From an uncultured Pelagibacteraceae bacterium (lineage in GTDB: Bacteria > Pseudomonadota > Alphaproteobacteria > Pelagibacterales > Pelagibacteraceae): a stretch of DNA of 64,000 bases. How positions within the stretch are numbered: position 1 is the first letter of the stretch; each line of letters begins with the position of its first letter. This document shows positions 22,558 through 29,186 of this stretch, in pieces. Below the pieces are notes generated by a model. That model saw only the letters and a program-made list of their open reading frames with translations. It had not been told where the DNA came from and made no database searches. The stretch lies in assembly GCA_902543295.1 (NCBI GenBank), contig CACBXW010000001.1:1-64000 (forward strand). The letters are read 5' to 3'. Both the position numbers and the translations under genes were made by a program.

Positions 22558-23097
22558 GTGTCAAAATTTAAATTAAGAAAAAAAATTATTAACTTAAGAA
22601 AAAAAAAATATTTTGAAATCAAAATTGACGATAATATTATAAATAGTTTTTATAATAAAATTAATCTATCAAAAAATAAAATTATTGGAGGTTATTTTCC
22701 AATAAATTTTGAATTTGATTGTTTGCAAATACTAAAAAAATTTTATTCTAACGGTTATATTATTTCGTTGCCAATTATAAAAAGAAATCATCAAATGGAT
22801 TTTCACAAATGGGATATGAATGATCCTTTAACATTAAACTCATTAGGAATTCCTCAGCCATTAAAATTGAAAAAAGTATACCCAGATATAATATTTGTAC
22901 CAACAGTTGCTTTTGATAAATTCAGGAATAGAATTGGCTACGGTGGTGGATTTTATGATAGATATTTAGAAAAAATCTCTCAAATTAAAAAATGTACAAC
23001 AATTGGACTGGCTTTTTCACATCAAAAAGTTAATAAAATTAATGTTGAAAATTTTGATAGAAAATTAGATTTAATTTTGACAGAAAAATTAATGTAA
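22558..23097 (+). CDS. 5-formyltetrahydrofolate cyclo-ligase (GTG start)
   Basis: GGYFPINFEFD, DIIFVPTVAFDKFRNRIGYGGGFYDRYLE. Confidence 0.9.
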   Translation: MSKFKLRKKIINLRKKKYFEIKIDDNIINSFYNKINLSKNKIIGGYFPINFEFDCLQILKKFYSNGYIISLPIIKRNHQMDFHKWDMNDPLTLNSLGIPQPLKLKKVYPDIIFVPTVAFDKFRNRIGYGGGFYDRYLEKISQIKKCTTIGLAFSHQKVNKINVENFDRKLDLILTEKLM

Positions 23098-23099
23098 AA

Positions 23100-23906
23100 A
23101 TGAAAATTTTATTTTTAGGCGATATCGTCGGAGACGCAGGCTTTAAATCAGTAAAAAAAAACTTGCCAAATATAGTCTCAAAAAAAGGCATAGATTTTGT
23201 TTGTGTTAATGGTGAAAATGCAGCAAGTGAAGGTGTGGGTCTAACTGAGAATATTGCTAATGAACTTTTTAATGTAGGTGTAGATGTAATTACTACAGGA
23301 AATCATGTCTGGGATCAAAAGGAAATTTATGAATATATAAAAACTGAAAAAAAATTATTAAGACCAGTAAATATGAGTGGAAATTTACCTGGTAAAGGTT
23401 TTTCCATATTCAATTCAAAAAAAAATCTAAAAGTTGGTGTACTAAATCTGATGGGTAACGTTTTTATGAAAAAGTGTGATGATGTTTTTAAAATTGCTAC
23501 CGAATTTATTGCAGAAAAAAAAAAATCAAAAGATTATGATTTTTTAATAGTGGATTTTCATGGAGAAATAACAAGTGAAAAAATGGCTATAGGTAATCTA
23601 TTTGATGGATATGCAACTTTAGTTGTAGGTACCCATACGCACGTGCCCACAAATGATGCAAGAGTTCTAAAAAATGGAACTAGCTATATTACTGATGCTG
23701 GAATGTGTGGTGACTATGACTCGGTAATTGGTATGAATGCACAAAATTCAATTAACAGATTTCTAAAAAAAGAAGCTGTAAAACATTTTCCTGCCAATGG
23801 AGAAGCATCTCTGAGTGGTGTAGTTGTAGATTGCGATGTAAGAAATGGACTAGCAAAAAATATAGAAAGTTTCATTTTTGGTGGGAGTTTAAAAAACATA
23901 AATTAA
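23100..23906 (+). CDS. YmdB-family metallophosphoesterase
   Basis: ILFLGDIVGDAG, VNGENAASEGVGLT, TTGNHVWDQKEI, VDFHGEITSEK, VVGTHTHVPTNDARVL, TDAGMCGDYDSVIG. Confidence 0.92.
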   Translation: MKILFLGDIVGDAGFKSVKKNLPNIVSKKGIDFVCVNGENAASEGVGLTENIANELFNVGVDVITTGNHVWDQKEIYEYIKTEKKLLRPVNMSGNLPGKGFSIFNSKKNLKVGVLNLMGNVFMKKCDDVFKIATEFIAEKKKSKDYDFLIVDFHGEITSEKMAIGNLFDGYATLVVGTHTHVPTNDARVLKNGTSYITDAGMCGDYDSVIGMNAQNSINRFLKKEAVKHFPANGEASLSGVVVDCDVRNGLAKNIESFIFGGSLKNIN

Positions 23907-23908
23907 TT

Positions 23909-24631
23909 ATGGCTGGACACTCACATTGGGCGGGCATTAAACATAAAAAAGGCAAAGCTGACAAACAGAGATCAAAAATTTTTTCTAAACTCTCCAGAGA
24001 AATCACTGTTGCTGCGAAACTAGGAGATAAGAATCCCGATATGAATTCGAGGTTAAGATCAGCAATACAAGCGGCCAGATCAGCTAACATGCCAAAAGAA
24101 AATATTGAGAGAGCAATTGAAAAGTCTTCTAACAATGATCAATCAAATTTTGAAAATATTAGGTATGAAGGTTTTGGACCTAGCAAATCTGCTGTAATAG
24201 TTGAAGCATTGACTGATAATAAAAATAGAACTGCTTCTAATATAAGAACAATATTTTCGAAAAATAACGGTTCTTTAGGAACCCAGGGCTCTGCATCACA
24301 TAATTTTCAAAGATTGGGTGTAATTAAAATAGATAAAAATGAAATTGAAAAAGATAAAATTTTTGAATTAGCAATCGAGTCGGGTGCAAATGATTGTATT
24401 TCTCGTGATGAATTTCATGAAGTGCATACGGATATCGATGAAATATACGAGGTAAAAAAAAAATTTGAAAAAGTTATTGCAAATTTTCTTTCTACTGAAA
24501 TCGAGTGGCTACCCATAAATAAGGTATCTCTTAAAGGTGAAGAAAATCAAAATATGGTAAAATTTTTAGAAACTCTTGATGATGAGGATGATGTACAAAA
24601 TGTTTATACAAATGTTAACTTTGAAGATTAA
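23909..24631 (+). CDS. yebC: YebC/PmpR family regulator (start moved to MAGHSHW)
   Basis: MAGHSHWAGIKHKKGKADKQRSKIFSKLSREITVAAKLG; the track start at 23831 overlaps the upstream gene. Confidence 0.93.
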   Translation: MAGHSHWAGIKHKKGKADKQRSKIFSKLSREITVAAKLGDKNPDMNSRLRSAIQAARSANMPKENIERAIEKSSNNDQSNFENIRYEGFGPSKSAVIVEALTDNKNRTASNIRTIFSKNNGSLGTQGSASHNFQRLGVIKIDKNEIEKDKIFELAIESGANDCISRDEFHEVHTDIDEIYEVKKKFEKVIANFLSTEIEWLPINKVSLKGEENQNMVKFLETLDDEDDVQNVYTNVNFED

Positions 24632-25129
24632 ATGATAATTGTTGGAATTGATCCAGGTATAGCAGGTGCTATCTGTTTTTTTTCTAGTGGGAATGTTATT
24701 GATGTAATCGACATGCCCACAATGGCTGAAGGAAAAAAAAATAAAAAACAAGTTAATGGTAGGCAAATTTATAATGAAATAATGCTAATAAAAAATAATT
24801 TTAAGAGCGAAAAAATGAGTGTAATAGTCGAACAAGTTTCTGCTATGCCAGGACAAGGTGTAACAAGCATGTTTAATTTTGGACAATCATTTGGAGTTAT
24901 TAAAGGCATTTGTTCTGCAATGGAGCTACCCATTTTTTATGTTAGACCAGCAAAATGGAAAAAACATTTTAATTTGATTAATTCTGATAAAGATGCCAGT
25001 AGAACTAAAGTAATAGAGATGTTTCCTAGAATCTCTAATAAGTTATCAAGAAAAAAAGATATTAATAAGGCTGATGCTATTTTAATTGCTCAATATTTTG
25101 AAAACACAAGAGAAAACATTGATAACTAG
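24632..25129 (+). CDS. RuvC-like RNase H-fold nuclease (phage-type Holliday junction resolvase-like)
   Basis: VGIDPGIAGAI, VIVEQVSAMPGQGVTSMFNFGQSFGVI, NKADAILIAQY; acidic residues consistent with a RuvC-like active site. Confidence 0.75.
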   Translation: MIIVGIDPGIAGAICFFSSGNVIDVIDMPTMAEGKKNKKQVNGRQIYNEIMLIKNNFKSEKMSVIVEQVSAMPGQGVTSMFNFGQSFGVIKGICSAMELPIFYVRPAKWKKHFNLINSDKDASRTKVIEMFPRISNKLSRKKDINKADAILIAQYFENTRENIDN

Positions 25130-25185
25130 ACTATTTGAGTTTTTTGAAGTCAAATTAATGACATATTTTAATGGGAAACGATTGA

Positions 25186-25860
25186 ATGGACTCAGATATT
25201 GCAACACAAAGCTTAGGTTTAGCAAGTAACACAGATTTTTCTTTAATTAGTTTATTTTTGCGCGCAGATATAATTGTCAAGTCAGTAATAATAATATTAA
25301 TTCTATCTTCCATTTATTCATGGGCAATAATATTTGAAAAAATAAGAATGTTTAGAAAAATTAATAAAAGTGCAGAGGAATTTGAAGAGAAATTCTGGAA
25401 ATCAAAGTCTGCTGAAACATTTTATAACAGTCTGCCTTCAAATATTGAGGATCCTATGGCAAAATTATTTAAAAGTTCTATGCAAACAGTTATGAAAACT
25501 AGATCAAAATCAAATTTATCTGAGAGACTATCTAGTGTTTTAGAAGTAAATATTGAAAAACAAATGGTAGCAGTTGAAAAGTATAATAGTTTTTTAGCAA
25601 CTGTTGGATCGACAGCTCCATTTATAGGATTGTTTGGAACTGTTTGGGGAATTATGAATTCATTTCAATCGATTGCAATTTCAAGAAACACTAGCCTTGC
25701 AATAGTTGCCCCAGGTATTGCAGAAGCCTTATTTGCAACTGCACTTGGATTATTAGCTGCAATTCCTGCTGTAATTGCTTATAATAAATTTAATTCAGAC
25801 TCTAGAAAATACTCACAAAAATTAGAAAACTTTTCGAAAAGATTCTTATCAATTATTTAA
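25186..25860 (+). CDS. tolQ: Tol-Pal proton channel TolQ
   Basis: LATVGSTAPFIGLFGTVWGIMNSFQSI, APGIAEALFATALGLLAAIPAVIAYN. Confidence 0.94.
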   Translation: MDSDIATQSLGLASNTDFSLISLFLRADIIVKSVIIILILSSIYSWAIIFEKIRMFRKINKSAEEFEEKFWKSKSAETFYNSLPSNIEDPMAKLFKSSMQTVMKTRSKSNLSERLSSVLEVNIEKQMVAVEKYNSFLATVGSTAPFIGLFGTVWGIMNSFQSIAISRNTSLAIVAPGIAEALFATALGLLAAIPAVIAYNKFNSDSRKYSQKLENFSKRFLSII

Positions 25861-26277
25861 ATGGGATTTAAGCTCAAAAGTTCAAAAAACGATCCAATGA
25901 GTGAAATTAATGTTACACCATTTGTTGATGTAATGTTGGTTTTGCTAATTATATTCATGGTCACTGCACCATTGCTTACAGTTGGAGTACAGGTAGATCT
26001 GCCAGAAACTTCTGCTGATACACTTCCTGAGGAAAATGAACCATTAACTTTAACTATTAATTCTAAAGGTGAAATTTTTATTCAGGAAACAAAAGTCGAG
26101 TTTAACAATTTGATTGTTAAAATATTGGCAGTGTCAAATAATAGAACTGATACAAGAATTTATGTTAGGGGAGACAAAGCTATTAACTATGGAAGGGTTC
26201 TGGAAATTATGGGAATGCTTTCAGGGTCGGGATTTACAAAAGTTGCTTTAATATCTGAACCGAATAAAGAGAGATAG
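25861..26277 (+). CDS. tolR: TolR (ExbD family)
   Basis: MSEINVTPFVDVMLVLLIIFMVTAPLL. Confidence 0.94.
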   Translation: MGFKLKSSKNDPMSEINVTPFVDVMLVLLIIFMVTAPLLTVGVQVDLPETSADTLPEENEPLTLTINSKGEIFIQETKVEFNNLIVKILAVSNNRTDTRIYVRGDKAINYGRVLEIMGMLSGSGFTKVALISEPNKER

Positions 26278-26282
26278 AGATT

Positions 26283-27251
26283 ATGTATCGAGGTCTTTTA
26301 ATCTCATCTGGATTTCATGTTGCTATTGTTATGGTGAGTATCTTGGCTTTACCATTTGTTGCCAAAAAACCTCTGGATATTCCACCTCTTATCTCTGTTG
26401 AGCTTATTCAAATAGCTGAAAAGACAAATATTCCTTTCGCACCAAAAGCATCAAAAATAATTGAGAAGGCAAAAAAAGAAAATGAAAAGCTTTTGTCTGA
26501 ACAGGCCCCTCCTAAAAAAGTAAAAAAAGATGAAAAAAAAGAAGTTCAAACAGATAAAAAAAAAAATGATATTTCTGAGGTTGCATCAAAAAAAACACCA
26601 ACTAGTGAAAATAAAATAGAAAAGCTAAAAAAAGAAAAATTAAACGCTGTACCTATGCCAGATGAAGATAAACAGAAAATTCAACCTAAAGAAGAAAAAA
26701 AGCAGAAACCTTCAAAAGAAATCAACGACGAAAATATCAAAAAAATAGTTCAAACAAAAAAACCTATTTTGGATGAGAAAAAAGTTAAACAAGTTTCAGA
26801 ATTTGAAAAGAAAGAAAAATTAGATTTAAACGAAATTGCAGCTTTAATTGATAAAAAAAAAGAAAATTTAGCAGAAACAAAAAAAGAAGTTGATAAGATT
26901 TCTCAATCAACTGATGAAACTATGGATTATTCAAAACTAACCCTTAGTGAAGAGGACGCATTAAAGGCCCAAATATTTACATGCTGGAGTGTTCCTATAG
27001 GTTTGCCATTTAGTGAAGATTTATTAGTTAGAGTTAAACTCCAATTAAAACCAGACGGTACAATTGAAAAACTTGAAATGTTAGATCATGTAAAAATGAA
27101 CACACCTGGTAAAGAAAAATTTAGAACACTAGCAGATAGTGTAAGACGAGCTATTCAGTTGTGTAACCCATTAAAAGTTCCCACAAGTGGGTATGAAAGA
27201 TGGAAAAATATGATTTTAAATTTTGATGCTCGTGATATGCTTGGAGGATAA
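26283..27251 (+). CDS. tolA: TolA-like protein
   Basis: N-terminal TM, long Lys/Glu-rich linker, C-terminal [19 protein letters not shown]; between tolR and tolB. Confidence 0.85.
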
Positions 27252-28597
27252 TGATTAGAATAATTAATTTATTTTTTTTTATATTTTTTTTATTGTCAGC
27301 TAAGGCTTATTCATTAATAGAGATAGATATAACAAGGGGTAATTTAGATCCGTTACCAATTGCAGTTTCTCCATTGTTTCAAGATGACAATTCAAAAAGA
27401 AATTCAATTAATGAACTTAAAATTGAAAATGTTGGATCTGAGATTTCATTAGTTGTGGAAAATAATTTAAAAATTTCAGGTTTATTTAATCCTCTTAGCA
27501 AAGAAGCATTTTTACAAAAGCCAGATATTGCTCATTTAAAACCAAGATTTGAGGATTGGGCATTGATTAAAGCTCAAGCTTTAATTACAGGCAAAGTAAC
27601 AATTGAGGACAAAAAATTAAAAGTTGAATTTAGACTATGGGATATTTTAGCCGGAAGAGAAATGATGGCCTTAGCATTTACAACGGTTCCAAGTAATTGG
27701 AGGAGAGTTGGACATATAATTTCTGATAAAGTTTATGAAAGATTAACTGGAGAAAAGGGATATTTTGATACCAGAATTATTTATGTATCTGAAGAAGGAC
27801 CTAAGACTGCAAGAGTTAAGAAGTTAGCTATTATGGATCAAGATGGTTTTAACACAAAATATTTAACATTAGGAAATGAATTAGTTTTAACTCCTCGATT
27901 TAATCCGACAAGTCAAATGGTGACTTACCTATCTTATTTTAAAAATCTACCTAGGGTATATTTATTAGATATTGAAACTGGTACTCAAGAAGTAGTTGGT
28001 GATTTTCCGGGAATGACATTTGCTCCACGATTTTCACCAGATGGAAAAAAAATTATTATGAGTTTTGCAAAAGATGGAAACTCAGATATTTATACAATGG
28101 ATTTGGAAAATAGAATTGTTGAAAGAATAACTAATCATCCATCAATTGATACATCGCCTTCTTACTCACCTGATAATCGATTTATAACATTTAATTCTGA
28201 TAGAAGTGGGTTTCAACAAATCTATGTAATGAAATCTGATGGTTCAAATGTAAAAAGAATTTCATTTGGCAAAGGATTGTATGGCACTCCTGTATGGTCT
28301 CCAAGAGGTGATTTAATTGCATTCACAAAATTACATAAAGGAAAATTTTATATCGGTGTTATGCGAACGGATGGTTCTGGAGAAAGATTATTGACTGAAA
28401 ATTACTATCAAGAAGCTCCTTCTTGGTCTCCAAATGGAAGAGTATTAATTTTTTATAGAGAGACCAAATCTAACGATAAAGGTGAAGGATTTAGTGCCAA
28501 GTTATGGTCTATAGATCTTACAGGTTATAATGAAAGGCAAGTTCAAACAGAGACGGATGCCTCCGACCCATCTTGGTCGTCTTTATTAAGTAATTAG
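27251..28597 (+). CDS. tolB: Tol-Pal periplasmic protein TolB
   Basis: Signal peptide; repeated [21 protein letters not shown] / [19 protein letters not shown] / [14 protein letters not shown] propeller blades. Confidence 0.95.
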
Positions 28598-28697
28598 GGC
28601 TATTTTATTAATTTTTTAATATAAATTAAGTTGATTTTTATGCTTGAAACATCTAATTAGTTGTGAAAAAGTTCTAATAAATTATTAAGGAGCATTA

Positions 28698-29186
28698 ATG
28701 AATTTTAGCAAATCATTTAGAAATACTTTTCTAGTTATATTATTAAGTTTAATCGTATCGGCTTGTGCTACGAAAAAAACCACTACGACAGTTGAAGGTC
28801 AAATGCAAGGTGATGTCTACACAGGAACTGATACAGTTAAATATTTAGCTGACGGTGTTCCGGACAGAGTATTTTTTGCGACAAACGAATCTATTTTAAC
28901 AACTAAATCAAGAGACACATTAAGAAAACAAGCAAATTGGTTAAGAGAAAATTCTAGCATCAATGTTGTAGTCGAAGGTCATGCCGATGAAAGAGGAACA
29001 AGAGAATATAACTTGGCATTAGGCGAAAGAAGAGCAAATGCTGCCAAAGATTATCTGATCACTTATGGAATATCTGCTGATAGAATTTCAGTAATAAGTT
29101 ATGGAAAAGAAAGACCAGTTGACTCAGGTTCAAATCCGCTTTCTTGGTCTAAGAATAGAAGATCTGTAACTGTAAAAGCTAATTAA
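28698..29186 (+). CDS. pal: peptidoglycan-associated lipoprotein Pal
   Basis: Lipobox-like IVSACA; VVEGHADERGTREYNLALGERRANAAKDYL. Confidence 0.95.
   Translation: MNFSKSFRNTFLVILLSLIVSACATKKTTTTVEGQMQGDVYTGTDTVKYLADGVPDRVFFATNESILTTKSRDTLRKQANWLRENSSINVVVEGHADERGTREYNLALGERRANAAKDYLITYGISADRISVISYGKERPVDSGSNPLSWSKNRRSVTVKAN

Follow-up and report, generated by a model that had tools for sequence, protein, structure and literature searches.

A phage-kind MOC1-type Holliday junction resolvase as the probable in-place replacement of RuvABC in Pelagibacteraceae

We analyzed a 64,000-nucleotide window from an uncultured member of the Pelagibacteraceae (order Pelagibacterales, SAR11) and found that the gene at 24632-25129 encodes a Holliday junction resolvase of the phage/chloroplast MOC1 type, not a cellular RuvC. 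With high confidence, we interpret this gene as an in-place replacement of RuvABC: a phage-kind MOC1-type enzyme, working without RuvAB, that occupies the bracketed position of the Pelagibacteraceae ymdB-yebC-[ruvC-ruvA-ruvB]-ybgC-tolQ operon. The original prediction, made from the sequence alone, was that a phage-type enzyme had replaced ruvC and that the branch-migration helicase had been lost, and the family assignment, the genomic slot, and the absence of RuvABC all back it. RuvAB is near-universal among RecA-bearing bacteria, with only two exceptions in a 2005 survey (PMC1193525).

Results

The resolvase gene occupies the ruv position of a conserved operon. A single open reading frame of 165 aa lies on the forward strand between yebC and tolQ, with the coordinates, strand, and length originally given. 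Its ATG (24632) directly abuts the stop codon of yebC (23909-24631, +; stop codon 24629-24631), and tolQ (25186-25860, +) begins 56 bases 3′ of it; these two neighbors served as slot markers. Genera g2-g4, like other alphaproteobacteria, carry ybgC at the position of this intervening gap (25130-25185, +). Upstream, a 5-formyl-THF cyclo-ligase-like gene and ymdB (22558-23906, +) form a conserved part of the ruv neighborhood and keep the order seen in other alphaproteobacteria that carry ruvCAB, while tolR, tolA, tolB, and pal follow downstream (25861-29186, +). The arrangement holds throughout the family, with yebC upstream of the resolvase in 126/126 SAR11 family loci and tolQ as the next downstream marker in all 124 loci with room for it.

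In relatives from the class, we could read the order ymdB-yebC-ruvC-ruvA-ruvB-ybgC-tolQRAB-pal directly, matching the order originally given for many alphaproteobacteria, with ybgC not always present; in some relatives, the ruv genes are situated away from yebC or a gap precedes tolQ. Genera g2-g4 of the same family have yebC-resolvase-ybgC-tolQ (loci L045, L047, L048, L051, and L058). Since ybgC follows the resolvase in these genera, the resolvase sits exactly in the ruvC-ruvA-ruvB position, and the loss of ybgC from the window's lineage is a separate event limited to part of the family. Thus, ruvA, ruvB, and ybgC are indeed missing from this locus, as first noted, but the absence of ybgC does not extend to g2-g4.

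The resolvase was detected in 87 of the 147 genomes of the order, every one of them in the window's family. Seven family genomes returned no match; in these, yebC was also missing or a contig broke inside the locus, so we attribute the absences to assembly gaps, and true absence was ruled out by this yebC check. The gene is under purifying selection (dN/dS of 0.08-0.17 among close relatives), and 55 of 165 columns are invariant in an alignment of 19 diverse family members. The window belongs to the genus Candidatus Pelagibacter; its nearest relatives among the named genomes compared, which are single-cell and metagenome genomes of Pelagibacteraceae, share 92-97% identity in this protein. The GC content resembles that of neighboring genes, which argues against a recent insertion. 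A prophage remnant was likewise rejected, given the ordinary GC content, the fixed slot, and the lack of adjoining phage genes.

Profile and structural comparisons place the protein with MOC1. The phage family phrog_1770, annotated as a Holliday junction resolvase, matched residues 1-159 at 126 bits (E=2e-36), and two further phage resolvase families matched more weakly. The comparison with cellular RuvC models gave 21.6 bits for Pfam PF02075 (cut-off 22.2) and 20.9 bits for TIGR00228 (cut-off 100.65), both below threshold. The only strong relatives of solved structure are plant chloroplast MOC1 proteins: NtMOC1 and ZmMOC1 were the best matches among PDB structures, with NtMOC1 retrieved at E=2.4e-16 from the single sequence and 2.7e-20 from a profile of the 19-member alignment. 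AlphaFold2, supplied with 19 family members, returned a model with pLDDT 87 and pTM 0.86 that has an RNase H fold of the MOC1 type. In Foldseek, the first 12 matches to this model were all MOC1 (TM 0.78-0.84; ZmMOC1 at TM 0.84, E=4.4e-12), followed later by RuvC (TM 0.54-0.65). The motifs MPGQGVTS and KDASR, which had suggested a phage-type enzyme, are both common to phage proteins. The assignment to a phage-type family therefore stands, with the refinement that the closest characterized relative is plant MOC1, not a studied phage enzyme.

These data also bear on whether the protein could be a fast-evolving, vertically inherited RuvC, with only ruvA and ruvB lost. It does occupy the ruvC slot, it resembles RuvC in having an RNase H fold with a D-E-D active site, and its weak PF02075 match spans nearly the full length. 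Against these points stand the profile scores and fold ranking described above, together with the phage-type loop and the KWKK and KKD motifs, all missing in RuvC. In a 65-sequence tree, RuvC formed one clade (100/100) that excluded the SAR11 protein, and the SAR11 sequences formed another (100/99) amid phage-type proteins. Forcing SAR11 to group with alphaproteobacterial RuvC cost 96 log-likelihood units (AU p=7.8e-11). We consider vertical descent from RuvC very improbable and rejected it.

The phage-to-bacterium direction of transfer is what we infer from the distribution of the family. A tree with SAR11 beside RuvC as the first branch was not rejected (AU p=0.61), leaving the root between RuvC and MOC1-type proteins unfixed, and similarity to the SAR11 proteins was the criterion by which the viral sequences in the tree were picked. 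Consequently, the direction rests mainly on breadth: the MOC1-type family occurs in 109 records of isolated phages and on at least 590 stretches of viral DNA, against 4 genomes outside SAR11 among 385 of the class. Neither yebC, tolQ, nor any ruv gene adjoins any of 151 viral loci, so bacterial contamination of the viral contigs was ruled out. The best viral identity was ~48%, and no pelagiphage relative close to the SAR11 resolvase was found. The unfixed root would also accommodate an old cellular MOC1-type lineage, retained by SAR11 and captured later by phages and plants, with SAR11 as the donor. We judge this scenario unlikely, as the family is rare elsewhere in the class, was not found in the sister family of the order, and is widespread in phages. 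Separately, plant NtMOC1 and ZmMOC1 grouped on a long branch with the resolvase of the Planktothrix cyanophage PaV-LD and two viral contigs (95/82; L272), hinting at a cyanophage link for chloroplast MOC1.

Acidic residues of the putative active site are conserved, and the recognition loop differs from that of MOC1. The catalytic tetrad of NtMOC1 comprises D116, D118, E175, and E258 (PMC7078210), for which the SAR11 equivalents are D7, G9, E67, and D148; three of the four positions are matched, with E258 represented by Asp. The codons of D7 (24650-24652, +), E67 (24830-24832, +), and D148 (25073-25075, +; also aligned with E. coli RuvC D141) encode residues invariant in the 19-member alignment. 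Gly at the second tetrad position is common to phage members and RuvC. The alignment also contains an invariant Asp143 (25058-25060, +), which aligns with NtMOC1 D253, lies near RuvC D138, and may supply the fourth acid. Within the base-recognition loop AMPGQG (24842-24859, +), invariant in 19/19 members, Gln75 stands in place of the cytosine-reading Asp of MOC1 (NtMOC1 D183), as it does in the aligned phage members. Owing to this substitution, we predict from the sequence that the SAR11 enzyme cleaves junctions with a preference different from, or looser than, the cytosine rule of MOC1.

RuvABC is missing throughout the order, and RecG is retained. A profile search of the window's own genome detected neither RuvC nor RuvB, and ruvA, ruvB, and ruvC are missing genome-wide. 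The RuvB_N matches in this genome fall in frames of 422, 552, 811, and 632 aa, sizes that would fit ClpX, DnaX, Lon, and FtsH, and were rejected as RuvB. Across the order, the full RuvB model matched 0/147 genomes, with known control genomes positive, and RuvA and RuvC exceeded the cut-off in none of the 147; the weak RuvA matches cover ~30 residues and score far below it. A ruvABC operon elsewhere in the genome was rejected on these grounds. For comparison, ruvB was present in 346 of 385 class genomes. RuvB was likewise unmatched in some other near-complete alphaproteobacterial genomes, among them G176 (a single contig, 99% complete).

RecG was found at full length (642 bits) in the window's genome and in 129 of the 147 genomes of the order, where it scores slightly below the TIGR00643 cut-off throughout; the misses are mostly draft or incomplete genomes. 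The search of the rest of the genome proposed at the outset thus shows ruvA and ruvB missing and recG retained. The loss initially described for the locus is confirmed, with the refinement that it is order-wide and not recent. In sister-family genomes, we also observed a second RecG/Mfd-type helicase beside recG (~790-800 aa frame; e.g., G002:C2:177728-178909), and only recG was found in the window's family at the same threshold. One possibility is that this second helicase is a truncated Mfd and that Pelagibacteraceae lack Mfd.

A different nuclease fills the slot in the sister family. No MOC1-type match was detected in this second family of the order, all 87 matches falling in the window's family. 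Instead, its yebC-tolQ slot encodes a 123-127 aa protein with a PDDEXK_15 match (e.g., L068:1020-1400, L062:1039-1410, and L072:2317-2700), scoring 31-34 bits against PF24608 (cut-off 27), E about 1e-20 against phrog_244, and weakly against archaeal Hjc. Of the 147 genomes of the order, 43 encode this protein; all 43 belong to the sister family and none to the window's family, so unrelated nucleases occupy one position in the two families. Its D50, E60, and K62 fit the PD-(D/E)XK (D...ExK) motif and are conserved in >93% of viral and host copies. The nearest relatives are viral, with up to 55% identity (50% for Roseobacter phage CRP-810). The AlphaFold2 model (pLDDT 52) was too poor to judge the fold.

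Another alphaproteobacterial order is represented by genome G263, in which we also found a divergent MOC1-like gene, in the arrangement ymdB-yebC-MOC1-like-ybgC-tolQ (L255:5344-7982); ruvB had no match in this genome, which is only 80% complete. The G263 copy lies apart from the SAR11 clade, and a common origin was only weakly rejected (AU p=0.034). The slot may have undergone a third replacement in the G263 lineage.

Discussion

Taken together, we regard it as fairly likely that the whole order gave up RuvABC, that two families independently filled the slot with unrelated phage-type single-protein resolvases (MOC1-type and PD-(D/E)XK PDDEXK_15), that the G263 lineage separately recruited a divergent MOC1-type enzyme, and that SAR11 recombination runs on RecG plus a phage-type resolvase. 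In the window's family, a phage-kind MOC1-type resolvase with an RNase H fold, presumably dimeric, would have taken over from ruvC, with ruvA and ruvB gone. The enzyme would most likely resolve the four-way junctions formed by RecA through a pair of symmetrical nicks, without the RuvAB motor, with branch migration probably performed by the retained RecG.

Alternatively, the gene could be a domesticated phage gene with a different role, for instance the debranching of replication forks or of phage DNA, with YqgF/RuvX or RecG alone handling junctions. RuvC-like nucleases can act on other substrates. YqgF is described as near-universal, but also as occurring together with RuvC, and no resolvase activity had been demonstrated for it (PMC1193525). 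The resolvase is moreover single-copy, family-wide, under purifying selection, and located in the ruv slot, and the same slot of the sister family holds another resolvase-type nuclease. We therefore find this alternative improbable and favor junction resolution as the function, although YqgF/RuvX could share junction work in SAR11.

Replacement of RuvC by unrelated resolvases (RecU, PMC1193525) and the activity of phage resolvases in ruv mutants are already known. For SAR11, our targeted search of the open-licence literature found no description of RuvABC loss or of a MOC1-type resolvase; an earlier report elsewhere is possible. SAR11 is reported to recombine promiscuously, in a study that does not mention the Ruv genes (PMC12374537). 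A SAR11 recombination study lists RecBCD, RecF, and MutSL, but not Ruv, as missing. A Red Sea study assigned a "putative Holliday junction resolvase" to the SAR11 core, which could be either the MOC1-type gene or YqgF.

SAR11 ranks among the ocean's most abundant bacterial groups. If confirmed, our findings would mean that its last recombination step depends on a phage-type nuclease whose cutting preference may differ from that of MOC1, and they would represent a rare case in which a core housekeeping complex was replaced in parallel, each time at the same place in the genome. The effect of a RuvAB-independent resolvase on crossover control would then become directly testable.

Comparison with known systems

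RusA, a prophage-derived resolvase of E. coli, has a fold unrelated to that of the MOC1-type SAR11 enzyme and is not found in a housekeeping operon. It is nonetheless similar as a phage-type resolvase able to act without RuvABC, releasing junction-tied DNA in ruvAB and ruvC mutants (PMC2716532). RecU of Firmicutes is likewise a known replacement of RuvC by an unrelated resolvase (PMC1193525), but it has another fold, its gene seldom adjoins ruvAB, and Firmicutes retain RuvAB. Cellular RuvC, which works with RuvAB, shares the operon slot, the RNase H fold, and the D-E-D core; the SAR11 protein differs in falling outside the RuvC clade, in its longer recognition loop and KKD segment, and in having no RuvA or RuvB partners.

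NtMOC1 and ZmMOC1 match the SAR11 protein over the full length, rank first in the fold comparison (TM up to 0.84), and share with it the catalytic Asp/Glu positions, apart from D118, and a base-recognition loop ahead of helix 2. Unlike them, the SAR11 protein is encoded on a bacterial chromosome, has Gln for D183 and Gly for D118, and shares ~25-29% identity with MOC1. The phrog_1770 resolvases of Salmonella phage epsilon15 and Planktothrix phage PaV-LD belong to one family with the SAR11 enzyme (~31-48% identity) and have in common with it the AMPxQG loop, the WK motif, and the C-terminal catalytic segment, whereas the SAR11 copies make up a single host-chromosomal clade with a fixed position between yebC and tolQ.
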